A stretch of DNA of 13,721 nucleotides. It comes from Sulfurimonas sp. GTDB lineage: Bacteria; Campylobacterota; Campylobacteria; Campylobacterales; Sulfurimonadaceae. The DNA lies in assembly GCA_027011725.1 (NCBI GenBank), contig JALUZQ010000016.1:1-13721 (forward strand), written 5' to 3'. Position numbers and translations under genes: made by a program. The notes under the pieces are model-generated. The model had not been told where the DNA came from. It did not search any database and worked only from the letters and a program-made list of their open reading frames with translations. Below, one piece after another: positions 362 through 13,721 of this stretch (position 1 is the stretch's first letter; the number at the start of each line of letters is the position of its first letter).

Positions 362-3354
362 TACAGTACCTTTGGTTTATTATTTCTCAAGTAGTAAAGT
401 GTTGCTTTAATGATGTCATCATCATCTTTACTCTCTGATTTTATTGTCTCTTTTGCATCGTTGAAGTATGTAAAAGTGATGTTCTGTCCATAATTTGTAA
501 TGGACTTTATCTTTTTCTCAATTGAAAGCAGTTTAATGACCATAAGCTCAAAGAACTGCTTCGTAGGGGTATCGACCTCGGCAAATCTATCGATGACCTC
601 CTCTTCTATCTCGTATATCTCTACAGCACTCTCAGCCTGAGAGAGTCTGCGGTAGAGGTCTAAACGCAGCCTGTCCTCTTGGACAACCTCATCACTGATG
701 TACGCTGAAATAGTCAGTTTTATGTCCACTTTTGCGCGCTGCGTTTGGACAGTATTGCTCAGCTCTTTTATGGCATCTTCAAGCATTCTCAAGTAGAGAG
801 AATACCCGATGTTTTTAATATGCCCACTCTGCGCATCACCTACCAGGTTCCCACCACCGCGAATCTCAAGGTCGTGGTGTGCAAGGACTGAACCTGAACC
901 TAAAAAGGAGTTTGATTCAAGCGCTAAAAGACGTTTTTTCGCTTCATCTGTGAGTGTCTCTTTGTTTTGTACGATGAAGTAAGCAAAGCCTTCATAGCTT
1001 CCACGCCCGACACGTCCACGAAGCTGATGCAGATCTGCGATACCAAATCTGTCCGCACCATCTACGATGATAGTATTGACACGCGGCATATGGATACCAC
1101 TCTCAATGATACTTGTCGCTATCATCAAGTCATACTCACCCGCTTCAAACTTGAGCAGCTCTTTTTCTGTCTCTACAGCAGAGATCTTTGAGTGCAGCAT
1201 CAGAATTCTCAGCTCAGGCAACAGTGCTTTTATCTCACCCATTTTTATAGGCATATGGTCTATGGAGTTATGCACATAAAACACCTGCCCACCGCGACGC
1301 AGCTCGCGAAGTATGACCTCTTTGATGAGTTTTTCATCATACTCTTTGACAAAAGTTCGCACCCCTTGACGCTCACTTGGAGGAGTAAGAAGCTGACTCA
1401 TTGTCTTAATGGAACTGAGTGCTTGGTTGAGTGAACGCGGAATTGGAGTCGCCGACATTGAGAGCAGATGCACATTATGGTAGAGCTCTTTTATCTTCTC
1501 TTTTTGCTTCACACCGAACTTATGTTCTTCATCTATGATGACCACACCCAGATTTTTAAACTCAAGCCCAAAGAGTGCATGTGTGCCTACAACACAATCT
1601 ATCTCACCGCTTGCAAGCCCTTTTGCAACTGCTTTTTTATCTTTTGCACTCACGAACCTGTCAAGTTTTGCATAGCGTATGCCCAAATCTTTAAAACGCT
1701 CATCAAGACTGCGAAAATGCTGTGCAGAGAGGAGTGTCGTTGGCACTATAAACGCAGACTGATAGCCTGATTTGTACGCAGCAAAAATGGTGTTGAGTGC
1801 AACCTCTGTCTTTCCAAAACCGACATCACCACTCAGCAGCCTGTCCATAATCTTGCCTGAGCTCATTTGGGAGAGTATCTCATTTATCGACTGCGTTTGA
1901 TCTTCGGTATATTCAAAGCCTGAGAGTGCTTGAAACTCTTTGAGCGTCTTTTTATCGAGTGAGATCTTCGGTGCTTTTATGAGTGCTCGTGCTGCTGCTG
2001 TATTTACTATCTGTCCTGCAATTTCTAGCAGACGCTTGCGTACGGTCGCTTTGAGTTTTCCAAAGCTTCCTTTACCGAGTCTGTCAAGTACAGGTGTCGC
2101 ACCCCCACCTGCGATGTAGCGGTCTATAAAGTCAAGATTCTCAACAGGAAGTAAGATCTTGTCATCACCGACATACTTGATGACTATGAAATCTTTGACA
2201 CCGCCAAGTATTTCGGTCTGTTCAATCTTCTCAAATATCCCCACACCATAATCTTCATGCACTACATAATCACCGGCTTTTAAGTCATCAAGGAGAATGG
2301 AGCTTTTACGTCTGCGACGTTTTTTATCGGGCTTGTTGAGGGAAATGACAAGTTCATCATCTGTAATTATGTTCAAAATATATGGTGCGGTTACGACATT
2401 TATCTCTTTTGTATCATAGATGCCCGCTTGCTTGATGGTCGCTGCGTTTGCAGCAATGATGGTTATTTTTTTATCTTTATGTACTTTAAGCAGCTGTTCT
2501 GCGTTTGCTACAACAAGCTCTTTGACACTATCGTTTTCAGGCAAAATATCAAGATTGAAACTCTCTCGTGGGAGTTGCGGATTGTTTATACCGTACGCAT
2601 CTTGGAGTACCCCGTCAAGATTACGCACAAGCTTTGCATTTTTTCCCTCTAAAAAGTTCTCACTCAGTTCATCAAGATGCCAAAAACCCAAAGAGGCAAT
2701 GTCTTTGTTGAGTGCATCAAATTCACTTTTTTCCACTTTTTCATTCAGTGCATTAAACGCAGCTTCATCAAGTGAATAGAAGGCACTTCGTACTTCTACC
2801 TCTTCAAGGTCATCTCCCACAGTGCGCTGCGTTTCAAGTTCAAAGGCTTTTATCTGCTCTATCTCATTATCAAAGAGTGAGATACGCAGAGGGTTTTTCG
2901 ATGAGGGCACATAGATGTCAATGATGTCTCCGCGAAAAGAGATCTCACCCTCAACCTGTACCATATCTACAAAGGTATATCCCCAAAAGAGCATCTGTTC
3001 TTTAAAAGCATTTAAATCTATCTCAGAGCCAAACTCCAAAGTAGTCGAGCCGAGTATCTCTTTTTTTGGCAGATGAAAAAGAAGTGACTTCAGAGGAGCT
3101 ATGACGAGCGGTTTTCTCTTCGCATCATGGTAGCTTCGCAGCGCAAAAAAGAGCTCATGCAACTCCTCTTTGTATGAACGCAAATCATCACCGTATGTAG
3201 GACGAAAATCTGGAAAGACAACAACATCCTGCCCAAAATATTTGGCAACCGTCTCAAGTTCAAGAAACTCTTTTGCATCTTCGCATATTAAAACATCAAG
3301 TGCAGACTCTTTTGTTTTGTTCTTAAAATAATTGTATAAAATTGCTTGTGACAT
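361..3354 (-). CDS. mfd: Transcription-repair coupling factor Mfd
   Basis: A 997-residue cytoplasmic ATP-dependent translocase. It pushes RNA polymerase stalled at lesions off the DNA and recruits UvrA for nucleotide excision repair. Visible order: UvrB-like N-terminal region (about 1-340), a basic linker KKRRRRK (344-350), the RNA-polymerase-interaction domain with GDYVVHEDYGVGIFEKIE (361-378), then RecG-like helicase lobes. Motifs are Walker A GDVGFGKTE (509-517), DEEH box (608-611), SATPIPR (634-640), TSIIESGIHMPRVNTIIVDG (747-766) and motif VI QLRGRVGRG (777-785). A C-terminal TRCF domain follows. Length fits the roughly 1000-residue Campylobacterota form, shorter than the 1148 residues of E. 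coli. ATG 3354-3352 has AAAGAAG (3359-3365) four bases upstream. The gene begins 9 bp after the M23 gene and ends overlapping ymdB. It carries 8 of the window's 19 AAACGCAG octamers. Confidence 0.98.
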   Translation of the reverse strand: MSQAILYNYFKNKTKESALDVLICEDAKEFLELETVAKYFGQDVVVFPDFRPTYGDDLRSYKEELHELFFALRSYHDAKRKPLVIAPLKSLLFHLPKKEILGSTTLEFGSEIDLNAFKEQMLFWGYTFVDMVQVEGEISFRGDIIDIYVPSSKNPLRISLFDNEIEQIKAFELETQRTVGDDLEEVEVRSAFYSLDEAAFNALNEKVEKSEFDALNKDIASLGFWHLDELSENFLEGKNAKLVRNLDGVLQDAYGINNPQLPRESFNLDILPENDSVKELVVANAEQLLKVHKDKKITIIAANAATIKQAGIYDTKEINVVTAPYILNIITDDELVISLNKPDKKRRRRKSSILLDDLKAGDYVVHEDYGVGIFEKIEQTEILGGVKDFIVIKYVGDDKILLPVENLDFIDRYIAGGGATPVLDRLGKGSFGKLKATVRKRLLEIAGQIVNTAAARALIKAPKISLDKKTLKEFQALSGFEYTEDQTQSINEILSQMSSGKIMDRLLSGDVGFGKTEVALNTIFAAYKSGYQSAFIVPTTLLSAQHFRSLDERFKDLGIRYAKLDRFVSAKDKKAVAKGLASGEIDCVVGTHALFGLEFKNLGVVIIDEEHKFGVKQKEKIKELYHNVHLLSMSATPIPRSLNQALSSIKTMSQLLTPPSERQGVRTFVKEYDEKLIKEVILRELRRGGQVFYVHNSIDHMPIKMGEIKALLPELRILMLHSKISAVETEKELLKFEAGEYDLMIATSIIESGIHMPRVNTIIVDGADRFGIADLHQLRGRVGRGSYEGFAYFIVQNKETLTDEAKKRLLALESNSFLGSGSVLAHHDLEIRGGGNLVGDAQSGHIKNIGYSLYLRMLEDAIKELSNTVQTQRAKVDIKLTISAYISDEVVQEDRLRLDLYRRLSQAESAVEIYEIEEEVIDRFAEVDTPTKQFFELMVIKLLSIEKKIKSITNYGQNITFTYFNDAKETIKSESKDDDDIIKATLYYLRNNKPKVL

Positions 3355-3363
3355 AAAACTTCT

Positions 3364-4272
3364 TTACTTTTTAACTATTTGAATGTGACTCATCGCTTCT
3401 ATGACAGAGGGCCATGGCACTTTCTTCTCTTTTTCAAAAATTTGGTTGTAATTTTTCTGTGTCCACTTTATAAACCAAAACGGATTGAGCGGACGCTGGA
3501 TAAAGCGCACCTCATAGTGCAGATGCGGCCCGTTGCTAATACCGGAATTTCCCGTATAGCCAATCAAATCACCTTTTTTTACAAACTGACCGGACTTGAC
3601 GACTATTTTATTAAGATGTCCAAAATAGGTCTTAAATCCATACACATGCGCCAAAATAATAAGCTTTCCAAAACCACTGCGTTTATGGTAGGCTGCCCAC
3701 TCCACTATGGCATCTGCTGTGGCATACACTGGGGTGTTACGTTTGGCTTTCATATCGCTCCCCTTATGGAGTTCACGTTTGCCTGTTATTGGGTGTGTTC
3801 TGTATCCATATCTGCTGGTGATTCCATGGTACTCTACAGGTGAACCACTTGGAATGAGTTCGAGCAGTGTTGCTCGCTGCACTGAGGTCAGCTTTGTAAT
3901 GTTCACCCTCTCGTGAAGGTTCTCACTTGCTATGGGTTTGAGTCCCATAAGTTCTTCTATTTCAGAGAGGGAGTCTGAGAGTTCGGAGAGTTCCTCTTTT
4001 TTTGTTTTCAGTGCCTCTTTTGTCGTTTGCATATCCTCTTTAAGAAGTCTGTCCTGCCAGCGCAGTTTTTCGTATGCCTCTTTGAGTGCCTCGCGTTTTT
4101 TATCTATCTGATCCACACTGTAATCAAGATATAAAATCGTCCCCACTGCTAAAAGTCCAATGGCAATAAGCAGTGCCAAAAGGTAGAAAAAGAACTTTTT
4201 AAGTAATTTGTGCACATTAAATTTCTTGACACCATTTTCATCATGAATGGTAATCGTAAAGTGTTTATCCAT
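3364..4272 (-). CDS. Membrane-anchored M23 peptidoglycan endopeptidase, Csd1/Csd2-like
   Basis: Predicted to cut cross-linked peptidoglycan peptides from the periplasmic side of the inner membrane. With the chosen start it has 302 residues: a short cytoplasmic tail beginning MDKHFTITIH, one membrane helix (about 27-49), a charged coiled-coil linker (52-110), and a LytM/M23 domain (about 148-262). All zinc and catalytic residues are present: HKGSD (His169, Asp173), GHL (His219) and HLH (His250, His252). A start at 4317 would add 15 residues, but ATG 4272-4270 has a clear GGGAG (4280-4284) seven bases upstream and overlaps the folC stop by only 8 bp (ATGGATAA). The position between folC and mfd matches helical-shape proteins Csd1/Csd2 of H. 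pylori (HP1543/HP1544), which work with the bactofilin CcmA. No bactofilin gene is present here, so a shape role is inference. The family call is firm. Confidence 0.93.
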   Translation of the reverse strand: MDKHFTITIHDENGVKKFNVHKLLKKFFFYLLALLIAIGLLAVGTILYLDYSVDQIDKKREALKEAYEKLRWQDRLLKEDMQTTKEALKTKKEELSELSDSLSEIEELMGLKPIASENLHERVNITKLTSVQRATLLELIPSGSPVEYHGITSRYGYRTHPITGKRELHKGSDMKAKRNTPVYATADAIVEWAAYHKRSGFGKLIILAHVYGFKTYFGHLNKIVVKSGQFVKKGDLIGYTGNSGISNGPHLHYEVRFIQRPLNPFWFIKWTQKNYNQIFEKEKKVPWPSVIEAMSHIQIVKK

Positions 4273-5413
4273 GATAATACTCCCGTAAAAAGGTCTCGGC
4301 AACACTAAAAGAGCCAAAAACCAAATAGTTTTTTTCAGCCTCTATTTTTTCAAACTCTCTACATTCCAGACCGACTCTCTGTGCTGCGGCTTTGATAAGA
4401 GTCGGCTTTTCTATACGCTCTTCATTCACGAAAATGAGCGCAACACTCTCTACTACAGGTGCTAAAATACGCAGTATCTCTGTATAGTTCTTGTCCTTGT
4501 AGCTGTTGTAAACAAGTGTATACTTCTCTCCCTCAAGAGACTTTGCAATAGAGTGTGCGGCTAAAGTATTATGCCCGACATCAAGCAAAATATTTTCAGA
4601 CAGACGAGAGAGACGGCCGAAGAGTTTCGCCTTGAAAAAATCCTCTGCCTTATACTCAATACCCAAAAATTTCAAAGCGGCAATGGAGAGTTTGAGATTA
4701 TTTTGCAAATACTCCGCAAGGGCTAATTTTTCACTTATTTGTGCAATTTTTACTGCATCACTAGCATCAATATACTCGTTATAACTCGCTAAACGCAGTG
4801 AACGCTTCTGCGCTATCTCTTGTGCAATTTTTGCGACTTGCGAGTGCTTTTGCACGCCTAAAATAGCAGCCGACTTAACTGCATTTAGCTTAGTAGTGGC
4901 AATGTCATCAATATTTGAGCCCAAAAAAGCTTCGTGATCGAAATCTATAGGTGTCACAAGTGTTAAAATGTTATCAAACACTGCCGTAGCATCATACTCT
5001 CCGCCTAAACCCGCTTCAAGCACAACATAGTCACACTCACGGTAGATAAGCATCGCTAAAAGCGTCGTGTACTCAAAATAGCTCAGAGCATCGGCATCTT
5101 CGCTTGAGAGTAAACGCAACAGTTCTTCATGTGCCGCTTCAAGCGCTGCGTTTGATACATTTGCACCATTTTTCCATATACGCTCATTGAACTCTAAGAT
5201 ATGCGGCGAAGAGTAGTGTCCTACATCGAAGCCGCGAGCAACAAGTGCAGAGGCTAAAAAGCGCCCGGTTGTCCCTTTGCCGTTCGTTCCGACAAGATGG
5301 ATAATTTGAGGGAGCTTGAGGGATGTTTTAATTTTTTCATAGATACGCGGCATACGCGTATAATCTATTTCATCGTAGTAGAGGGGTTTATTATTTAAAA
5401 AAGCTTCGAGCAC
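4265..5413 (-). CDS. folC: Bifunctional dihydrofolate/folylpolyglutamate synthase FolC
   Basis: Mur-ligase-family enzyme that adds L-glutamate to dihydropteroate and extends folate polyglutamate tails, using ATP in the cytoplasm. The 382-residue protein shows the P-loop GTNGKGTT (42-49), SSPHILEFNERI (68-79), FEYTTLLA (113-120), LEAGLGGEYDAT (132-143), an ATP/metal segment DFDHEAFLG (157-165) with a Lys at 175, and DVGHN (278-282) in the C-terminal ligase domain. It is at the short end for FolC but complete. Translation starts at GTG (5413-5411), two bases after the stop of the diguanylate cyclase gene. The nearest GGAG is about 14 bases upstream, so translation may depend on coupling. Its end overlaps the M23 start by 8 bp. 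Whether both synthase activities are retained cannot be told from sequence alone. Confidence 0.95.
   Translation of the reverse strand: MLEAFLNNKPLYYDEIDYTRMPRIYEKIKTSLKLPQIIHLVGTNGKGTTGRFLASALVARGFDVGHYSSPHILEFNERIWKNGANVSNAALEAAHEELLRLLSSEDADALSYFEYTTLLAMLIYRECDYVVLEAGLGGEYDATAVFDNILTLVTPIDFDHEAFLGSNIDDIATTKLNAVKSAAILGVQKHSQVAKIAQEIAQKRSLRLASYNEYIDASDAVKIAQISEKLALAEYLQNNLKLSIAALKFLGIEYKAEDFFKAKLFGRLSRLSENILLDVGHNTLAAHSIAKSLEGEKYTLVYNSYKDKNYTEILRILAPVVESVALIFVNEERIEKPTLIKAAAQRVGLECREFEKIEAEKNYLVFGSFSVAETFLREYYHG
4280..4284 (-). promoter_or_regulatory. Ribosome binding site GGGAG of the M23 gene
   Basis: GGGAG on the minus strand lies seven bases before ATG 4272-4270, inside the end of folC. 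It favours this start over the in-frame candidate at 4317. Confidence 0.7.
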
Positions 5414-5415
5414 GA

Positions 5416-6963
5416 CTATTTTTTATACTCCACACGGTTTCTGCCTTCGCGTTTTGCTTTGTAGAGATACTCATCAGCAGAGTTAATGGTCGCCTCTAAA
5501 GAGACATGGTTTTTACGCTCACTCACACCTGCACTTACTGTTACTTTTATGCGTTTACCTTTGTAAAGAAAACGCGCTTTTTGGACATGTTCACGCACCT
5601 TTTGGGCAAATATTACACCGCCTTTCGTATCTGTCTCGCTTAAAATCGCCAAAAACTCTTCACCGCCAAAACGTCCGACAATATCTACACTGCGTGAATC
5701 TTTTTTCAAAATCTGTGCAAATGCAGAGAGAACCGCATCCCCAGCTTCATGCCCGTAGGTATCATTGACCTTTTTAAAGTGGTCAATGTCAAACATCACG
5801 ACTGAGTAGTTTCGTCCATAGCGTTTAAACTCGGCCTCTTTCATCTGCATCAATTCATCAAGCGCGCGTTTGTTGTAAAGCTTGGTCAGAAAGTCTTCTT
5901 GAGATTCTTTTTTTGCCGCTTCAAGCTCTTTTTCAAGTGTTCGTACCTTTTCACTCAGCATTTTGACCTCTGAAGAGTGTCCTTTGAGGTCTTTACTTAA
6001 GAGTTGTGTATTTTTCTCTAAGGCTACAGCAATGGTAAAGAGTTTCTTATGGGCTACTTTAAAGTTCGTAGTCGATTCTTCCGTGTAAGATTCAAGCTCT
6101 TTTTTGATCTTTTGCACTTCTATGTTGGAGTTATCAGAGCTCTCTATCATATCTATCAAACGCAGTGAAAGCTTGTCAAGCACACCATCAATGGAGCCGA
6201 CCATATCTTTAACGGTTTTATTATCAAGTGCTATACGCAGTGAGATTATGGCTCGTATCTCATTCTCTATTCCTGCAGATTCGAGAATATCAGGGTTCTT
6301 TCTTAGTTTATCACTTACAGATGCTATCTCATCATTGACACTTGAGGCGATGGAGGGTACAAAAGAAGCAACTAAAAGCTTTGCAAGTCTTTGCAGGTCT
6401 GCTTTATTTGTACTTGGTGTAGTTGCATCACCACACTGCATCGCCTCTATGGTTTTTCGTAAATCTGAACTATCCACTGCCCCATAAGGTTTGAGCTGTT
6501 CTAAAAATGCATCATCATAAGTGGTAATAAAATTGACCCACTGCTGTCTAATCTGATCCAGCTGCTCAGGCTGTGCAGCTGACTCTATAAGATCGATGGT
6601 TTTTTGAGAAAGTGCTGCAACCTCTTTGTTGTGTAAAACAGAAGCTACTTGTAAAATGCGTTTTGTGAGTAATATTTGTGACTCTAAAAGTTTTGTGCAC
6701 TGTGTCGGAGTTGTTCGATTGAGCTTTGTCACAACATAACGCACAAACTCTTTCATTGTTTTGATATGATAATTTTTTAGATCGTTTTGCAGCTCTTTGT
6801 TGAGCAGTTTTATATAGCCGTCCAAATGCTCACAATCTTCAACATTCATTCCTGCTTTTTTTGCCTCTTTACAAAAAGCCTCTGCGTAAAAATCCGGGGT
6901 AAGTAACTTTCCCTCAGCTTTTAAACGCTTCAGTGCATTGTTTATAATCTTGTTAATAGTCAT
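5416..6963 (-). CDS. Cytoplasmic diguanylate cyclase (GGDEF) with unrecognised helical N-terminal region
   Basis: Makes the second messenger c-di-GMP from two GTP. The 515-residue protein has no membrane segment or signal peptide. Residues 1 to about 350 are largely helical, with a probable coiled coil near 280-355 leading into the catalytic domain (about 356-515). That domain has the metal-binding FDIDHFKKVNDTYGHEAGD (391-409) and the active-site loop GGEEF (433-437), so the enzyme is predicted active. An intact allosteric inhibition site RSVD (424-427) lies exactly five residues before GGEEF, so product feedback is expected. I do not recognise residues 1-350 as PAS, GAF, REC or HAMP. The ATG has AGGAG (6971-6975) seven bases upstream, overlapping the TAG stop of the lptE-like gene. 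It separates folC from the lptE-like gene, where H. pylori has none. GGDEF call is very secure; the sensed signal is unknown. Confidence 0.96.
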   Translation of the reverse strand: MTINKIINNALKRLKAEGKLLTPDFYAEAFCKEAKKAGMNVEDCEHLDGYIKLLNKELQNDLKNYHIKTMKEFVRYVVTKLNRTTPTQCTKLLESQILLTKRILQVASVLHNKEVAALSQKTIDLIESAAQPEQLDQIRQQWVNFITTYDDAFLEQLKPYGAVDSSDLRKTIEAMQCGDATTPSTNKADLQRLAKLLVASFVPSIASSVNDEIASVSDKLRKNPDILESAGIENEIRAIISLRIALDNKTVKDMVGSIDGVLDKLSLRLIDMIESSDNSNIEVQKIKKELESYTEESTTNFKVAHKKLFTIAVALEKNTQLLSKDLKGHSSEVKMLSEKVRTLEKELEAAKKESQEDFLTKLYNKRALDELMQMKEAEFKRYGRNYSVVMFDIDHFKKVNDTYGHEAGDAVLSAFAQILKKDSRSVDIVGRFGGEEFLAILSETDTKGGVIFAQKVREHVQKARFLYKGKRIKVTVSAGVSERKNHVSLEATINSADEYLYKAKREGRNRVEYKK

Positions 6964-6973
6964 ACCAACTCTC

Positions 6974-7495
6974 CTATTTTATCTTCGAGCCTTCTGCTGA
7001 GACCTGAGCGATGAATGAAGATATCGCCTTAGCAGAACCAAACTTAATGGCATCAAATCGCTCTTGATCGGTAAGGACTGCGTTTGGTGAAACTGCGAAA
7101 TCATATGTACCCTGTGCGCTGTAATGCTTTTTAATATTTTTACTCTCACGCGTAATACCTAGCGTTATTGTAGCACGATATGCTATAACAAATCCATCTG
7201 CATTATATTGGATAGGTGTATATGTAGGTGGATTCAAGGTGATGACAAGGTGAGTATCTGCAAAATCATATGTCGTTAAAGAGGTGTGAAACACCTCCAC
7301 AAGCGCAGTATCTACAGCATCTTTGATGACAACGGTATTTTCAGGGTCTTGCGCAGAGATAACGACATCGGTACTAATGCGTTTACCAAGCACCTCTCTT
7401 GCATATTTCGAGGAGGGTTTGTATCCACACGCACTCAGCATGCTTATAATAATACTAAGAATTATAAACTGAGATATGCGTGAATAACTTTGCAA
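6974..7495 (-). CDS. lptE: LptE-like outer-membrane lipoprotein
   Basis: A 173-residue lipoprotein: hydrophobic signal segment (about 8-20) then lipobox LSAC with the lipidated Cys23, followed by GYKPSS. The mature part is compact and beta-rich with no membrane helix. The CGYKP start and the position next to leuS match the LptE-like protein of Campylobacterota (H. pylori HP1546, C. jejuni Cj1090c, recalled). LptE plugs the LptD barrel that inserts lipopolysaccharide in the outer membrane. LptE sequences diverge strongly, so this rests on layout and synteny more than on motifs. Translation must start at TTG 7495-7493: an in-frame TAA lies just upstream, and the next Met (residue 19) would destroy the signal peptide. 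AAGGG in the end of leuS, five bases upstream, is a plausible ribosome site. One base separates it from leuS. Confidence 0.75.
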   Translation of the reverse strand: MQSYSRISQFIILSIIISMLSACGYKPSSKYAREVLGKRISTDVVISAQDPENTVVIKDAVDTALVEVFHTSLTTYDFADTHLVITLNPPTYTPIQYNADGFVIAYRATITLGITRESKNIKKHYSAQGTYDFAVSPNAVLTDQERFDAIKFGSAKAISSFIAQVSAEGSKIK

Positions 7496-7496
7496 T

Positions 7497-9950
7497 TTAG
7501 CCCTTTATCACAAGATTTACAAGTTTTTTAGGAACAACAATCTCTTTGACTATTTCTTTACCTTCAAGCCATTTTGCAACACTCTCTTTTGCAGCATTTA
7601 AGATATCATCTTTACTCGCATCTGCAGTCACTTCGATCTCAGCACGTTTTTTTCCGTTGACCGAAACACCAAGAGAGATAGAGTCCTCAACAAAGACTTC
7701 TTCTATGATCTCTTGCGGAGCAAGGTTTTTAAGGTTAAAATATTTCTCTGAGATCTCCCAACAAGTATGAGGAATGACAGGTTCCATAATAGCCGAGAGT
7801 ATCCAGTAACCTTCACTCCAAACGTCAGCATTTTTCTGAGCATTGAGTGCGTTCATTGCCTCCATTACACCTGCTATCATTGTGTTAAAGGTGTAGCGTT
7901 CATTGTAAACATCTTCGGCACGTTTGAGTGCTTCATAGACCTTTTTACGTGCGAACTTTTCTTCTTTGGAAAGAGATGCATGATCTATCACAGGCTTTTT
8001 CTCAGTTGCAACGACATTTGCACTTCTGTCAAAAAATCTTTTGATGAACTTGTAAGCCCCATCAACTGCGCTGTCATTCCACTCTAACTCTTGTGTCGGC
8101 GGTGCGGCAAAAAGAATGAAAAGACGTGCTGTATCTGCACCATATTTCTCTATTATGGCATCGGGGTCAACCGTGTTGCCTTTTGATTTTGACATCTTTG
8201 CGCCATCTTTGAGTACCATTCCCTGTGTGAGGAGTCTCTCAAACGGTTCATCAAACTCCAAGTAGCCCAAATCACGGAAAACTTTTGTAAAAAATCTTGC
8301 ATATAAAAGGTGCAAAATCGCATGCTCAATCCCACCGATGTAGTGATCAACACCCATCCAGTACTTGATCTGCTCAGCAGAGAATGCCTCTTCTTCCCAG
8401 TTTTGTGGTGATGCGCAAAAGCGTAAGAAGTACCATGAAGACTCTACGAATGTATCCATAGTATCTGTCTCACGAGTAGCATCCCCTCCACACTCGGGGC
8501 ACTTACAGTGCTTCCAAGTCGGGTGATTCTCCAGTGGATTTCCCTCACCTGTAATCTCGACATCTTCAGGAAGTGCAATAGGAAGATTCTCTTTTTTCTC
8601 CATCACAAGTCCACATTTATCACAATGTACAAATGGAATAGGCGCACCCCAGTAACGTTGACGACTTACACCCCAGTCTTTGAGCTTGTAGTTCGTTGTA
8701 CGTTTTCCAAGTTTGTTCGCTTCAAAGAAATCGATGATTTTTGCTTGAGCCTCTTTGGAGTTCAACCCATCAAACTCACCGGAGTTTATCAGTTTTCCTA
8801 CCTCAGTAAAAGCCGACTTTGAAAAATCATGCTCTCCATCAAACGGGGCAATGACTGCGTTTATAGGCAGGTCATATTTTTTAGCAAAGTCATAGTCTCT
8901 GTCATCATGCGCAGGAACTGCCATAACAGCCCCGCTTCCATAATCCATCAGCACAAAGTTCGCTATCCAAACAGGTACAGCTTTTTTTGTCAGAGGATGG
9001 ATAACATTCAGACCAAGCGGTAGACCAGATTTCTCTTTTTGTCTATCGATTGAAGAGGCATTTTTCATGGCATTTATCTCTGCAATCTGTTCTTGGCTTA
9101 AAAGATTGTTCTCTATCATATACGTTACAATCTCATGCTCTGGAGCGAGAGCCGTGTAGCTTACACCGTAAATAGTATCCGGACGCGTGGTAAAGACATC
9201 AAAACTTTCAAATTTATTATCAAGTTTCGCGCGTGATGCTTCATCAAAGAACAAGTCAAACGCAAGTCCGTTTGATTTACCTATCCAGTTCTCCTGCATG
9301 GTGAGTACCTGCTTTGGCCAGCCGCCTTCAAGCTTTTTCAAATCTTCTAAAAGCTCATCCGCATAAGCAGTGATCTTAAAGTAGTACTGGTTCATATCTT
9401 TTTTAACGATCGGCGTGTCACATCTCCAGCAGCATCCATCGACAACCTGCTCATTTGCAAGAACAGTCTGGTCGTGTGGACACCAGTTAAGCATCCCTTT
9501 TTCACGATAGAGCAAACCTTTGTTGTACATATCAATGATAAAGCCCTGCTCAAATTTTGTGTAAAGCTCATCGCTCGTTGCAAGTTCACGTTTACGAGAG
9601 AATGAAAAGCCTAGAGAGTAAAACTCGTTTTTCATATAGTCTATGTTATCGTATGTCCAACTCTTTGGATGGCTTCCATTTTTGATGGCAGCATTCTCAG
9701 CAGGCATACCAAAACTGTCAAACCCGATAGGGTGCAGAACATTTTTGCCCTGTTGTCTGTGATAACGAGCAAAAGCATCTGAGATAGAGTAGTTTCTTAC
9801 ATGCCCCATATGAAGACGTCCACTAGGAAAAGGGAACATTGAAAGAATGTACTTCTTCTCCTGTGTAAAATCTTCACTCGGCTCGAAACTCTCGTGCTCT
9901 TTCCAGTACTCTTGCCACTTTTTTTCTACTTCTTGTGCCTTATATTCCAA
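7497..9950 (-). CDS. leuS: Leucyl-tRNA synthetase
   Basis: Class I synthetase that charges tRNA-Leu with leucine, in the cytoplasm. The 817 residues include the HIGH-type motif HMGH (47-50), a zinc-site cluster around CPHD...CCWRC (157-177), and the CP1 editing domain with TTRPDTIYG (254-262) and [19 protein letters not shown] (338-356). A second Cys-rich module CDKC...CKCPECGG (443-489) follows, then SSWYFLR (504-510), KMSKS (585-589), the anticodon-binding helical domain and a small C-terminal domain ending VIKG. It is somewhat shorter than the 860-residue E. coli enzyme but complete. The start is TTG 9950-9948, supported by GAGGA (9957-9961) six bases upstream and by the normal family N-terminus. 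It follows the small membrane protein gene by 11 bp. Only one AAACGCAG octamer occurs in these 2.45 kb. Confidence 0.98.
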
Positions 9951-9956
9951 ACTCTT

Positions 9957-9961
9957 TCCTC
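9957..9961 (-). promoter_or_regulatory. Ribosome binding site GAGGA of leuS
   Basis: GAGGA on the minus strand lies six bases upstream of the TTG codon 9950-9948, immediately after the stop of the upstream gene. It supports the non-ATG start of leuS. Confidence 0.7.
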
Positions 9962-10300
9962 TTAATACTCTTCATGTGTTTTACTGCTCTCAATGTAGAC
10001 GAGTCCCATTGAGAAGATATTTGCTATTAGCGCACCTATTGAGAGTGCGATTGCCCATGAGTCATCTTGTACGATAACCAAAAATATAAACGCAGGGATC
10101 AGGTGTAGATCAGCAACCAAAGAGGATGCCAAAAGTTCTGCAGAGAGCAGATTTCTAACGCCTATTTTTAAAATCGTAGATATCAAGTTCACACTTGCTG
10201 CTACGAAAAGCGAAATTGCAGTATTTTCATACAAAAAGCCTGCAATCGACGTTAAACTCATGAGTGAAAAAAATACGTAAACTACTTTACCCCAATCCAT
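9962..10300 (-). CDS. Small four-helix inner-membrane protein, DUF6394-like
   Basis: A 112-residue protein with four predicted membrane helices (about 6-24, 28-47, 56-77, 81-105) and short polar ends (MDWGK..., ...SKTHEEY). No enzymatic motif is seen. A conserved-looking segment [22 protein letters not shown] (split around residue 45-66) contains charged and polar residues within or next to membrane helices. I recall a similar family, DUF6394, at this position in Sulfurimonas-type genomes, and H. pylori HP1548 is a membrane protein at the equivalent place; neither could be checked. ATG 10300-10298 has AAGGAG (10307-10312) six bases upstream, so it is certainly expressed as a gene. It sits between secF and leuS, 12 and 11 bp away. 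A link to Sec-dependent export is suggested only by position. The function is unknown. Confidence 0.85.
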
Positions 10301-10312
10301 ATCCTGCTCCTT

Positions 10313-11287
10313 TTACATTACACCTGATTCAAACTGCTCACGCATTCTGTTTTTCTCAGCTTCTCTTTTTGCTTTTTCAGCCAGTTTTTCGTGGTATTTT
10401 TTCACGTCGAAACCAAACCATAAAAGAATAGGTGAAGCAACAAAAATAGATGAATATGTACCTATAACTATACCAATGAGCATCGTAAATGCAAATGGAT
10501 GAATAATCTCACCACCGAACATAAAGAGTGTAAATATCACAAAGAATGTCGTGAGTGATGTAAGCGTCGTTCTTGAGAGCGTTCGCGTTATAGACTCATT
10601 TATTATCTCTTGAAGACTCGTTGTCTTTTTCGATGTCACAATTCCCTCACGAATACGGTCAAATACGATGATGGTATCATTGAGTGAATACCCAAGCAGT
10701 GTAAGGAGTGCCGCTAAAACATCAAGGTTTACATCGATGCCAAAAAGTGCTACAAAACCACTTGCAATGGAGACATCATGAATAAGTGCAACAATCGAAG
10801 CAACCGCAAAACGCCACTCGAAACGAAACGCAACGTATATCAAAATACCTGCGATTGCCAAAAGCATTGACATAATGCCCTTCTCACGAAGTTCACTTCC
10901 GACTTTTGGTCCGACAATATCAACACGACGTATCTCAAAGTTCCCTGTGCCTTTGAGCGCTTCACGTGTAACATCACCAATATCTTGCGTCACACTTCCT
11001 GTTGTCGTCTTCATTCGTATGACTATCTCGTTCGGTGAGCCAAACTCTGTAATTGACGCATTGTCAAAAAGTTTATTTCCCTGTAGTCTCTCTCGAATCT
11101 TATCTATAGGAGCTTCTTTATCATACTTCACCTGAACAATCGTTCCACCTGCAAAGTCAATACCGTAGTTAAAACCTTTCACTGCCAAAATAGCATATGA
11201 AAGCAAGACCAATGTAATAGAAAACGCTATTGCTATTTTTGATTTACCCATAAAATTAAGGGCTGATTTATATCTAAAAAATTCCAT
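10313..11287 (-). CDS. secF: Protein translocase subunit SecF
   Basis: Inner-membrane RND-like partner of SecD that uses the proton-motive force to help pull exported proteins through SecYEG and release them in the periplasm. The 324 residues show a first membrane helix (about 18-37), GIDFAGGT (42-49), a periplasmic P1-like domain (about 50-135), then five more helices. Family signatures include FRFEWRFA (154-161), LLGYSLNDTIIVFDRIRE (197-214), SRTTLTSLTT (238-247) and GTYSSIFVASPIL (276-288). A charged cytoplasmic tail (295-324) closes the protein. Length is normal (E. coli 323). The ATG has AAGGGG (11293-11298) five bases upstream, formed by the last codons of secD. SecD and SecF genes are two bases apart, fitting equimolar synthesis. 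Confidence 0.98.
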   Translation of the reverse strand: MEFFRYKSALNFMGKSKIAIAFSITLVLLSYAILAVKGFNYGIDFAGGTIVQVKYDKEAPIDKIRERLQGNKLFDNASITEFGSPNEIVIRMKTTTGSVTQDIGDVTREALKGTGNFEIRRVDIVGPKVGSELREKGIMSMLLAIAGILIYVAFRFEWRFAVASIVALIHDVSIASGFVALFGIDVNLDVLAALLTLLGYSLNDTIIVFDRIREGIVTSKKTTSLQEIINESITRTLSRTTLTSLTTFFVIFTLFMFGGEIIHPFAFTMLIGIVIGTYSSIFVASPILLWFGFDVKKYHEKLAEKAKREAEKNRMREQFESGVM

Positions 11288-11289
11288 AA

Positions 11290-12855
11290 TTACCCCTTAA
11301 TTCCAAACCAAAATTTATAATCTTTGCTCTTTCTTATCTTATCTTCAAGCATATCGTAAATACCATGTGTTCCTAAAATAGCCGTAAGCATAGAGGCTAA
11401 AATACCAATACTCATCGTAATAGCAAAACCTTTAATAGCACCCGTACCATAAACATATAGAACAACCGCTGCAATGAGAGTCGTAATGTTCGCATCTAAA
11501 ATAGCACTCATTGCGTTTGCATACCCCTCTTCTATGGCTTTGTGCATAGACTTACCTTCATAAATCAGCTCACGTATCCTCTCAGATATAATAACGTTGG
11601 CATCAACTGCCATACCGACCGTAAGGACAATACCTGCCATACCCGGAAGTGTCAATGTCGCACCAAAGAGGCTCATGACTGCCAAGAGCAAGAAAAGGTT
11701 GGCAATAAGTGCAATGTTTGCAATGACACCAGCCATACGGTAGTAAACAACCATAAAAATAATTACAAGTGCAAAACCACCAAAGAGTGCGACCATCGAA
11801 GCTTTAATACTGTCAGCTCCCAAGCTTGGCCCTACTGAGCGTTTTTCCATCAAGTAAATTGGTGCAAGCAGTGCACCTGAGCGCAGTGCAATAGCCAAAT
11901 CTTTTGCTTCAAGTACCGTATAGTTTCCAGATATCTGTCCTGCACCGCCACCGATACGTTCATTAATATTTGGAGCAGAAAAGACCTTTCCATCGAGAAC
12001 AATAGCAAGACGTTTTCCAACATTCTTACCGGTAAAGTCACCGAAGATGTCAGCACCCTCTGCGTTTAGTTTAAAGTCGATTACAGGACGGTTGTTTTGA
12101 TCAAAGCCTACATTTGCACCAGTGAGCATACTTCCATCTAAAATAGGAATCTCATGTACAAGATACTTTATCTTAGGGTTCTTCGCATCAGCTAAAATCA
12201 CATCACCATACTCCGCGGCATCTGCCGGACTCATATTGTAAACCCTTGCATTTCTCTCTTCATCGACTGCCATAAGTTCAAGCTTCGCTGCACGGGAGAT
12301 AAGTTCACGTGCACGTTGCTCCTCTTGTGGTGTTTTAATACCTGCAAGTTCTACAAGAATTTTATCTTTCCCCTGTTTTGCAACGAGCGGTTCAGAGAGT
12401 CCAAACTGGTCAAGTCTGTTTCGTATCGTCTCAATCGCCTGATCTATTGCAAGTTGTTTGATTTTCTTGATCTCTTTTGGAGAAAAAGTTATGTGAATGA
12501 CACTCCCCTCTTGCGAAATTTGTGCACCATCTATTTTCTTTAAAAACTCATCAAAAGATTTCACTTCATCACTATCAAGCACTTCAAAGCTCACACTCTC
12601 ATCATCAAAAGTAAGATTGTCTATTAAGATATCATTTCTCTCAGCATAGTGTTTAATACTTGCCGCAACAGATTTAATACGAGATTTGATCGCTTCATCG
12701 GTTTTGACACCCAAAAGCATATGCAGACCGCCTTGAAGATCAAGGCCTAATGTTATTTTTTTGCCACCCTCTGTTTGCAAAAGTGACGGTACTGAAAAGA
12801 CAATACCAAATACCAATGCTAAAGCAAAAATGACAATTCGGTAATTAAGCTTCAT
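11290..12855 (-). CDS. secD: Protein translocase subunit SecD
   Basis: Larger membrane subunit of the SecDF export-assisting complex. From ATG 12855-12853 it has 521 residues: first helix (about 5-24), LGLDLQGGLHMLLGV (36-50), a large periplasmic region with the P1 fold (AIETIRNRLDQFGLSEP, 140-156), SRAAKLELMAVDE (187-199) and a head region. Then come SGALLAPIYLMEKRSVGPSLGADSI (split, 326-350) and five helices with GMAVDANVIISERIRE (414-429), whose Asp418 corresponds to the proton-relay Asp. A TTG at 12873 would add six residues but lacks a ribosome site. The ATG has AAAGAAG seven bases upstream and gives the usual MKLNYR start. It overlaps yajC by 11 bp. It is shorter than E. coli SecD (615), as is common outside gamma-proteobacteria. 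Confidence 0.97.
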   Translation of the reverse strand: MKLNYRIVIFALALVFGIVFSVPSLLQTEGGKKITLGLDLQGGLHMLLGVKTDEAIKSRIKSVAASIKHYAERNDILIDNLTFDDESVSFEVLDSDEVKSFDEFLKKIDGAQISQEGSVIHITFSPKEIKKIKQLAIDQAIETIRNRLDQFGLSEPLVAKQGKDKILVELAGIKTPQEEQRARELISRAAKLELMAVDEERNARVYNMSPADAAEYGDVILADAKNPKIKYLVHEIPILDGSMLTGANVGFDQNNRPVIDFKLNAEGADIFGDFTGKNVGKRLAIVLDGKVFSAPNINERIGGGAGQISGNYTVLEAKDLAIALRSGALLAPIYLMEKRSVGPSLGADSIKASMVALFGGFALVIIFMVVYYRMAGVIANIALIANLFLLLAVMSLFGATLTLPGMAGIVLTVGMAVDANVIISERIRELIYEGKSMHKAIEEGYANAMSAILDANITTLIAAVVLYVYGTGAIKGFAITMSIGILASMLTAILGTHGIYDMLEDKIRKSKDYKFWFGIKG

Positions 12856-13111
12856 CCTCGTACTTCTTTGCAATGGAATCTTTTGTAATTTTAACGATTG
12901 TGTCTTTATTCATTTCAACACTGAAAAACTTCTCTTCAACTTTATGAACAACAACAATAAAACCACCATTGGTGATCACTTTATCGCCTTTTTTGAGAGA
13001 CTCTAGCATCTCTTTTTTAGCTTTCGCCTCTTTTTGTTGTGGACGTATAATCACAAAGTACATAATTGCGATTAAAAATACGAATGGTAATAACTGAGAA
13101 ATAATTTCCAT
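12845..13111 (-). CDS. yajC: Sec translocon accessory protein YajC
   Basis: An 88-residue single-span inner-membrane protein that associates with SecDF and SecYEG. It has a short periplasmic N-terminus, one membrane helix (about 6-22), the hallmark RPQQKEAKAKKEM (23-35) right after it, and a cytoplasmic domain with KKGDKVITNGG (40-50) typical of YajC. It is the first gene of the operon. ATG 13111-13109 has AAGGA about ten bases upstream, the spacer being made almost entirely by an AAACGCAG octamer (13115-13122). The -10 box at 13143-13148 lies just upstream. Its end overlaps secD by 11 bp, suggesting coupling. Confidence 0.97.
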   Translation of the reverse strand: MEIISQLLPFVFLIAIMYFVIIRPQQKEAKAKKEMLESLKKGDKVITNGGFIVVVHKVEEKFFSVEMNKDTIVKITKDSIAKKYEDEA

Positions 13112-13114
13112 GTT

Positions 13115-13122
13115 CTGCGTTT
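13115..13122 (-). repeat. Intergenic AAACGCAG copy between ribosome site and start of yajC
   Basis: This is the only non-coding copy of the octamer. It fills the spacer between AAGGA and the yajC ATG, so the copy must be compatible with translation initiation. No other role is visible. Confidence 0.7.
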
Positions 13123-13142
13123 CCTTGAGTAAAATTTTGGCG

Positions 13143-13148
13143 ATTATA
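13143..13148 (-). promoter_or_regulatory. Sigma-70 -10 box of the yajC operon
   Basis: On the minus strand the sequence reads TTGTATAATCG, containing a perfect TATAAT. Transcription would start near 13136, giving a leader of about 25 bases to yajC. No good -35 hexamer is found at 17 bp; the upstream DNA is AT-rich, as in Campylobacterota sigma-70 promoters, which generally lack a conserved -35. It is the only promoter-like site placed to serve the whole ten-gene block. Confidence 0.65.
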
Positions 13149-13155
13149 CAAGAAA

Positions 13156-13186
13156 TATACTAAATAACGAGTAAATTGAGTACAAT
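13156..13186 (+). promoter_or_regulatory. Candidate lnt promoter -10 boxes
   Basis: Two -10-like hexamers face lnt: TATACT (13156-13161), giving a leader of roughly 26 bases, and TACAAT (13181-13186), which would give an almost leaderless transcript. The first is more plausible. No clear -35 is seen. Low confidence, because AT-rich DNA yields such hexamers easily. Confidence 0.3.
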
Positions 13187-13193
13187 TTCACTT

Positions 13194-13721
13194 ATGAAAC
13201 GATTATTGAGGCATCTTTTTACAGGATTGGTGAGTGCACTGCTTTTGAGTGCTTTCATCTATCTCGCAGACTACGGCATTACAAACAAATTTCTGAACAC
13301 ACTTTTAGGCATTTCGGCATTTGCCCTTTTACTCTACATTCCTAAACGCAGCGTGCTCTTTGCAGGCTTTTTCATAGGGCTGTTGTGGTTTTACTGGATA
13401 GGCTACAGCTTTAAGTATCAGGGTGTCGGATATATGACCCCTATTGTCACTTTTGGATTTGGAGTGCTTTACCTGCTCTTTTTTGCTCCGCTTGCCCTTA
13501 CCGACAAGCCCTATATACGTGCCGTTTTTCTTTTTATTTTGAGTTTTTTCGAGCCGCTTGGCTGGAACTGGATGAAATTAGAGCTGCCTTTCATCAACAG
13601 CTACATTGGTGTGTACCACTATCAGTTTATTGCTCTCTTACTTGCCCTGAGTCTGCCTGCACTCATACAAAACAAAAAGTACAAATTCCTGCCACTGCTA
13701 CTGTTGGTCGCTGCGTTTAAC
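13194..13721 (+). CDS. lnt: Apolipoprotein N-acyltransferase Lnt (partial, C-terminus beyond the right edge)
   Basis: The first 176 residues are readable from ATG 13194-13196 to the window end without a stop. Lnt adds the third acyl chain to the N-terminal Cys of lipoproteins in the inner membrane. The visible part is highly hydrophobic with about five membrane helices. It includes the family-like segment FAGFFIGLLWFYWIGYSF (about 55-72) and, at about 117-138, EPLGWNWMKLELPF followed by INSYIGV, corresponding to the conserved E-x-L/R...F-P-W-x-x-x-G-Y region. The nitrilase catalytic domain (Glu-Lys-Cys) lies outside the window. No strong ribosome site precedes the ATG. Divergent placement next to yajC matches C. 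jejuni Cj1095, recalled as lnt. The call rests on the helix pattern, these segments and synteny. Confidence 0.82.
   Translation, partial: MKRLLRHLFTGLVSALLLSAFIYLADYGITNKFLNTLLGISAFALLLYIPKRSVLFAGFFIGLLWFYWIGYSFKYQGVGYMTPIVTFGFGVLYLLFFAPLALTDKPYIRAVFLFILSFFEPLGWNWMKLELPFINSYIGVYHYQFIALLLALSLPALIQNKKYKFLPLLLLVAAFN

Follow-up and report, generated by a model that had tools for sequence, protein, structure and literature searches.

The octamer AAACGCAG, found in 19 exact copies in the 13,721 nucleotides analysed here (positions 1 to 13,721 of contig JALUZQ010000016.1, assembly GCA_027011725.1, Sulfurimonas sp.; referred to as the window), is probably (at a probability of about 0.73) a DNA uptake signal for natural transformation, the local one of several Sulfurimonas dialects, and would have been spread by biased uptake and recombination. 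Excess of the word, strand symmetry, mutually exclusive dialects, copy places kept within a dialect, genes for an uptake machinery and co-variation with the minor pilin P5 were observed and form the basis of this reading.

Abundance of the octamer in the window and the genome

Seven of the 19 copies are located on the plus strand and 12 on the minus strand (1.38 per kb), all of them between 662 and 13718, which is exactly the count of an earlier reading of the window made from its letters (the sequence-only reading). The strong local over-representation stated there was borne out by 200 dinucleotide shuffles of the window, which contained a mean of 0.51 and at most 3 copies. Sixteen copies fall within eight minus-strand genes, one is intergenic (13115-13122), and two are found after yajC in a plus-strand frame that by eye resembles the start of an apolipoprotein N-acyltransferase gene (lnt); this agrees with the nine genes and one gap described earlier. 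Six genes (mfd, M23 peptidase, folC, GGDEF, leuS and secD) were named by family match. The lptE-like gene and the 112-amino-acid gene were named by eye, and the family search gave no match for either. Within the eight minus-strand genes, minus-strand copies use three sense frames and plus-strand copies two antisense frames, also as claimed. In the following list "exact" refers to the aligned place in L070, L072, L074 and L075, four of the five loci sharing the word that are considered below.

662-669, plus strand, mfd, antisense; exact in L070, L072, L074, L075
739-746, minus strand, mfd, sense
1750-1757, plus strand, mfd, antisense; exact in L070, L074
1891-1898, minus strand, mfd, sense; exact in L072; aligned place in L070 and L074 reads AAACAAACGCAG, with the word intact beside a 4-base gap
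2442-2449, minus strand, mfd, sense; exact in L070, L074
2499-2506, minus strand, mfd, sense
2755-2762, plus strand, mfd, antisense; exact in L075
2827-2834, minus strand, mfd, sense; exact in L075
3677-3684, minus strand, M23 peptidase gene, sense; exact in L072
4791-4798, plus strand, folC, antisense
5146-5153, minus strand, folC, sense
6158-6165, plus strand, GGDEF gene, antisense; exact in L070, L074
7078-7085, minus strand, lptE-like gene (by eye), sense
8855-8862, minus strand, leuS, sense; exact in L074, L075
10088-10095, plus strand, 112-amino-acid gene, antisense; exact in L072, L074, L075
12060-12067, minus strand, secD, sense; exact in L074
13115-13122, minus strand, intergenic, between yajC and the next gene
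13344-13351, plus strand, lnt-like plus-strand frame (by eye) after yajC; exact in L070
13711-13718, minus strand, antisense in the lnt-like frame, at the window end

The proposal of a genome-wide signal was supported as well. The draft genome to which the window belongs (1,416,224 bases in 279 contigs, 67.6% complete; the own genome below) contains 1,087 copies (521 forward, 566 reverse), about 37-fold more than the 29 copies (10 and 19) of the reversed word. The resulting average of 0.77 per kb is below the density of the window and far above expectation: in 93 kb of the own genome 77 copies were counted where a second-order Markov model predicts 3.6 (an excess of about 21-fold), and AAACGCAG ranked first among all 8-mers.

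Copies inside open reading frames (ORFs) made up 73 of 77 in the own genome and 239 of 255 in G483, the genome richest in the word, which roughly tracks the ORF share of the sequence. Densities inside and outside ORFs were 0.85 and 0.56 per kb in the own genome and 0.94 and 0.97 per kb in G483. The earlier statement that codon bias or protein repeats do not suffice was confirmed by within-gene synonymous-codon shuffles, after which an excess of about 9-fold persisted (73 copies in own ORFs against a mean of 8.05 and a maximum of 16 in 100 shuffles). The G483 ORFs, with 240 copies, gave a mean of 24.5 and a maximum of 32 in 40 shuffles. Every sense frame is used; frame 2 is the most frequent (32 of 73 in the own genome), as an origin from codon usage, protein repeats or a mobile repeat might suggest. 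Against such an origin stand the use of three sense and two antisense frames in the own genome, the excess over the codon shuffles and the flanks: the consensus is (C/T)AAACGCAG(C/T), positions past two bases carry little information, and no extended motif was seen. We give this explanation virtually no weight.

Strand use was even among stretches of up to 20 kb (heterogeneity p 0.16 in the own genome and 0.13 in G483). This bears on the possibility that the words are bound by a protein acting in recombination or chromosome handling, as are Chi (AddAB), the FtsK-orienting polar sequences (KOPS) or the sites of a nucleoid organiser, and are selected apart from uptake. The density of 0.77 per kb and the genome-wide spread would fit such a site. 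The strands, however, are evenly mixed within and among these stretches, showing at that scale no orientation like that of Chi and KOPS, and the words differ between sister clades, whereas Chi and KOPS are known to stay the same within a genus. Furthermore, the sister-species word TACATGTA, being a palindrome, has no direction, and this weighs against Chi or KOPS as a common explanation. Hence, the preference of the sequence-only reading for an uptake-type signal over Chi or KOPS was upheld, and a chromosome-handling role appears highly improbable. The codon shuffles and the even strand use were the grounds for rejecting codon or protein repeats as well as Chi and KOPS.

Single-mismatch forms of the word are informative on a further possibility, namely that the words are methyltransferase or restriction-like self-tag sites whose excess results from selection for the tag; uptake might still need the tag. 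The phylum has one known uptake tag that depends on methylation, according to the part of the source at hand (PMC10046745). TACATGTA is palindromic, and G483 has fewer copies than expected of some single-mismatch forms, e.g. AAACCCAG with 1 copy against 6.6. Pooled, these forms are not depleted and amount to 1.93 times expectation in G483 and 1.29 times in the own genome (about 1.2 and 1.1 without AAACGCAA, which is itself enriched in G483 with 209 copies in 270 kb against 23 expected). Methylation is not known to raise the count of an 8-mer tens of times above expectation, and we consider a self-tag origin unlikely.

Three small contigs of G483 (L001, L002 and L003) carry no copy in 9.9 kb, where about nine would be expected. 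Genes of L003 by eye resemble a plasmid relaxase and a replication gene; L001 has ordinary chromosomal genes.

Dialects across the genus and conservation of copy places

In a sample of 397 genomes of the phylum (32 of the same genus and 365 from outside it), only the own genome, G239 (1,822 copies) and G332 (1,698) stand out for AAACGCAG; the highest count outside the genus was 239. Among 135 genus genomes the word ranges from background to 2,331 copies (G483), with near-equal strands in the rich genomes. Other words were sought by 8-mer scans of about 20 kb in each of 39 further genomes (some contigs being shorter), enlarged for part of them, and of LeuS loci of at least 7,000 bases. The 80 best LeuS loci comprise 37 annotated as Sulfurimonas, the rest being Sulfuricurvum, Helicobacteraceae and others. 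Species poor in AAACGCAG yielded TACATGTA, AGATGCWA, CACATGCC, AAACGCCA, CTCACGCA(G), AAATGCAG and CTACATCC, and CTCACGCAG is the word of S. paralvinellae (G009). In the 135 genomes TACATGTA, a perfect palindrome, reaches 848 sites per genome (reversed word 7 to 76), AGATGCWA 2,593 copies and CACATGCC 1,668 copies (reversed word at most 19 per strand). AAACGCAG, CACATGCC and AGATGCWA are non-palindromic.

Applying thresholds of 250 (AAACGCAG), 200 (TACATGTA), 900 (AGATGCWA) and 250 (CACATGCC), which were chosen after the counts were known, 25, 21, 15 and 15 genomes, respectively, were rich in one of these words, 76 in total and without overlap between the lists. The AGATGCWA list is the least sharp, with counts of up to about 740 below the threshold and 935 in its lowest member. 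No clear word was found in 40 to 60 kb scanned of each of G252, G311, G287, G326 and G282. In a comEC tree and a tree of eight genes AAACGCAG is spread over three or more clades and TACATGTA over three; the clade that holds the window is the sister of a TACATGTA clade. The words thus do not simply follow descent; they are several dialects, of which AAACGCAG is one.

The places of the copies were compared in loci of at least 12,000 bases with at least nine aligned sites. In the five loci sharing AAACGCAG, 28 of 79 window copies are kept (L070, 6 of 17; L072, 4 of 15; L074, 8 of 18; L075, 5 of 13; L117, 5 of 16), against 9.6 to 11.6% of all 8-mers; two of the 28, presumably the copy at 1891 in L070 and L074, are split by the 4-base gap beside an intact word, and the count is otherwise 26 of 79. 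The 37 loci with little or no AAACGCAG kept 12 of 508 copies, where conservation of all 8-mers was 4.4 to 15.1%. L065, which favours CTCACGCA, kept none of 17 copies although 15% of its 8-mers are conserved; its LeuS is 90% identical over the full length, and only L138 (91%, partial) is higher among the 80 best loci. Since places are kept within a dialect and lost in L065, the copies seem to be maintained by something common to one dialect that is lost when the dialect changes.

This pattern also concerns a mutational or repair bias of the kind proposed in a HIP1-like reading (HIP1, highly iterated palindrome), by which the words would be created with no role in uptake. HIP1 is likewise a hyper-abundant genome-wide octamer of unsettled function, and lineage-dependent words are compatible with such a bias. 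HIP1 is, however, a palindromic octamer, which AAACGCAG, CACATGCC and AGATGCWA are not; places are kept in word-sharing species well above other 8-mers, and a pilin gene, P5, tracks the word. We regard a HIP1-like bias as very unlikely.

A number of further words were observed in the scans. G326 (L051, L227, L228), counted as word-less, has a weak candidate in AACGGTGA (13 against 1.7 expected). In G239 (L026, L175, L194, L004, L005) a second word, CATGAGCG/ACATGAGC, is enriched alongside AAACGCAG (26 against 1.9 expected) and is perhaps a repeat or a second signal. G397 (L036, L182, L189, L255-L262) is enriched in AAACGCCA, AAACGCGA and TAAACGCG and has 409 copies of AAACGCAG genome-wide, a degenerate dialect; this genome is possibly in mid-switch. 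The strand skew of the AAACGCAG copies in G009 (111 forward, 30 reverse), which differs from the pattern of the rich genomes, hints at a repeat array. A long tandem repeat in which AAACGCAG recurs every 408 or 411 bases is found in G370:C1:291960-294415 and G374:C1:291108-294403, outside the family of Sulfurimonas but within the phylum. Possible words outside Sulfurimonas are CATCGATG (18 against 1.5 expected) and CATCGATA (15 against 1.3) in L137 (Sulfuricurvum sp. PC08-66), and CTACATCC (12 against 0.4) in L081 (Helicobacteraceae bacterium AUK043), which has CTACAT in common with the TACATGTA dialect. Purine-rich words (GAAGAGGA, AAAAAGAG, AAAGAGGG) are enriched in many genomes across the genus and beyond, e.g. 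G252, G326 and L140, and were therefore not counted as dialects.

Uptake genes and the candidate receptor P5

The check for competence genes proposed with the sequence-only reading gave a positive outcome at the level of the genus. Of the 135 genus genomes 123, the own genome among them, have ComEC, as do 78 of the 79 good assemblies. T2SSE-family ATPases were found in each of 14 genomes and N_methyl pilins in all genomes searched (9 of 9 and 7 of 7). A type IV pilus or Cts-like cluster was found in eight genomes, with eleven gene families common to all eight; in one stretch (L188) Pfam matches identified an extension ATPase with MshEN domain, GspF, a secretin and, weakly, PilO. The pilin sets are a comEC-linked pair (P1, P2), then P3, P4 and a PilX-like pilin beside a protein of 1,192 to 1,663 amino acids, and P5. 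In the own genome, as a 67.6% complete draft, ComEC and two comEC-linked pilins were found, and neither a pilus-class ATPase (580-600 amino acids) nor P5 was detected. A type II secretion cluster was read in nine genomes. Eight of them have four pseudopilins in it, and in G239 the stretch is truncated. This cluster was rejected as companion of the word, as G009 and G319 have a word but no ATPase match of its 505-amino-acid class.

P5 is a minor pilin with a prepilin N-terminus and a GspH/FimU fold whose locus adjoins an rRNA operon. In a test for co-variation beyond phylogeny over eight clades, its same-word distance residual was -0.096 (rank 2 of 280). The ranks of the others were 188 for P1, 74 for P2, 182 for P3, 92 for P4 and 232 for the PilX-like pilin, and 60 of 140 for the neighbouring gene aclA; these pilins or pilin-like proteins showed no co-variation with the word and were rejected as receptor. 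The stronger point is the size of the effect, the residual being -0.096 for P5 and reaching 0.019 at most for the others; the rank alone would fail a strict correction because 15 genes were tested (11 more in a six-clade test). The eight clades were picked after viewing the trees, and an insertion in P5 common to G399 and G129/G402/G406 was noticed before the test, which used 20 of 30 sequences, namely those of genomes with a word and with sufficient comEC-linked genes; P2 covers seven of the eight clades. Leaving out one clade at a time, P5 ranked 1 to 4 of 35 to 140, and labelling G009 with its own word lowered the rank to 92 of 1,120. On this co-variation P5 is a candidate word-specific receptor.

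Pfam PF12019 (GspH/FimT) was not among the matches listed for any of the 29 members of P5. The GspH equivalog TIGR01708 was matched by all 29, the one score shown being 31.8 bits and thus below the cut-off of 80. C-termini read ETGYxxI and the like, and no GRxR motif was seen by eye. Apart from the shared N-terminal helix, a PDB sequence search with P5 gave two weak matches that look like chance. VIA-align had no ComP chain among the matches listed for P5, which excludes nothing.

Several findings weigh against an uptake-signal system with P5 as receptor. Palindromes are uncommon among uptake signals, and no report of competence in Sulfurimonas was among the matches listed from open-licence papers. 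G252, without a clear word, has a pilus cluster of similar gene sizes and order. P5 itself is present in the word-less G252, G311, G287, G326 and G282, and P4 in G252, G287 and G326. Conversely, P5 is absent at an E-value of 1e-5 from G449, G460, G409, G496 and G481, and G000, G461, G488 and G444 gave weak partial matches only. In the near kin G449 (99% complete) and G460 all eight N_methyl matches look by reading like other pilins, and both genomes seem truly to be without P5 in the assembled sequence; G409 has 361 copies of AAACGCAG but two N_methyl matches. In the six-clade test, where P5 had a residual of -0.133, the pilus ATPase ranked 2 of 30 with a residual of -0.037, and the secretin ranked 4 of 30. 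Parsimony counts on gene trees failed to separate P5 from housekeeping genes. Among the eight TACATGTA genomes with P5, the P5 tree places G404, G186, G328 and G480 apart from G129, G399, G402 and G406. Finally, the P5 ectodomains are mostly acidic, with an isoelectric point of 7.1 or less in 26 of 30.

Some species additionally have a shorter P5-like paralog (frames of 173-198 amino acids), which adjoins P5 in G252 and could be a second specificity. It is located at:

G332:C31:298-825
G402:C1:1672123-1672659
G406:C1:664340-664876
G333:C1:269219-269755
G404:C1:1772738-1773271
G252:C1:460491-460718

Relation to known uptake systems

Occurrence on both strands, kept places and exclusive dialects that change with a pilin resemble the uptake signals of Neisseriaceae and Pasteurellaceae, the two families from which such words are known in the part of PMC7811141 available. 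From these observations we infer uptake itself, a direction of cause and P5 as receptor. A type IV pilus would bind free DNA, a minor pilin would prefer DNA bearing the word, and this DNA would be drawn in via the secretin and ComEC, whereupon recombination would swap alleles. If alleles with the word entered more often, copies gained by mutation would spread and persist on both strands; a change in the receptor would alter the favoured word and thereby switch the dialect.

The DNA uptake sequences (DUS) of Neisseriaceae, recognized by ComP, are similar in that a short word is hyper-abundant, several dialects occur in one group and some genomes lack a word (available parts of PMC3630211). The same parts quote 2,245 to 5,918 copies for different dialects, mostly above Sulfurimonas, and describe a core-genome tree congruent with dialect and a ComP tree that follows dialect for the most part, whereas Sulfurimonas dialects recur in separate clades. 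In contrast to the DUS, the Sulfurimonas words belong to another phylum, share less of a core and include one perfect palindrome, and in contrast to ComP the candidate receptor P5 has a GspH/FimU fold.

The uptake signal sequences (USS) of Pasteurellaceae are long and have an extended flanking motif, of which nothing was seen in Sulfurimonas. Enriched words and divergent dialects are common to both, and the minor pilin PpdA/ComN was proposed as receptor on in-silico evidence including co-evolution (PMC12616744, available in part). FimT of Legionella and other Gammaproteobacteria is a DNA-binding minor pilin with a C-terminal GRxR motif, as stated in the portion of PMC8897410 at hand; P5 differs by the missing PF12019 match, the missing GRxR and its mostly acidic character. 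Within the phylum, Campylobacter jejuni discriminates self-DNA in natural transformation by methylated RAATTY, but this system needs methylation of a degenerate hexamer, and no hyper-abundant word is described in the accessible part of PMC10046745. Phylum, palindromic word and recurrent switching are the notable differences of Sulfurimonas from the known systems. The earlier remark that no described uptake word was known in this phylum is in accordance with our search of open-licence papers, where no report of such words in Campylobacterota or Sulfurimonas was found; the papers listed from a wider search likewise did not deal with the subject, as judged by titles and the beginnings of abstracts.

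A more far-reaching proposal, which we put forward tentatively and hold to be slightly more apt to fail than to stand, is that this is a third, independently evolved uptake-signal system, in which distant clades come to swap discrete words when the P5 locus is transferred or replaced, so that the dialect is a switchable compatibility type for gene exchange across a genus-wide environmental population. The genus offers free-living and cultured species in another phylum, at least four words and recurrent switches, one dialect, that of TACATGTA, being contained in the genome of S. autotrophica OK10 (2010). This makes it testable why uptake words arise and how a dialect changes without stranding the old genome. 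If true, sequence-specific gene exchange in bacteria would be more widespread than thought.

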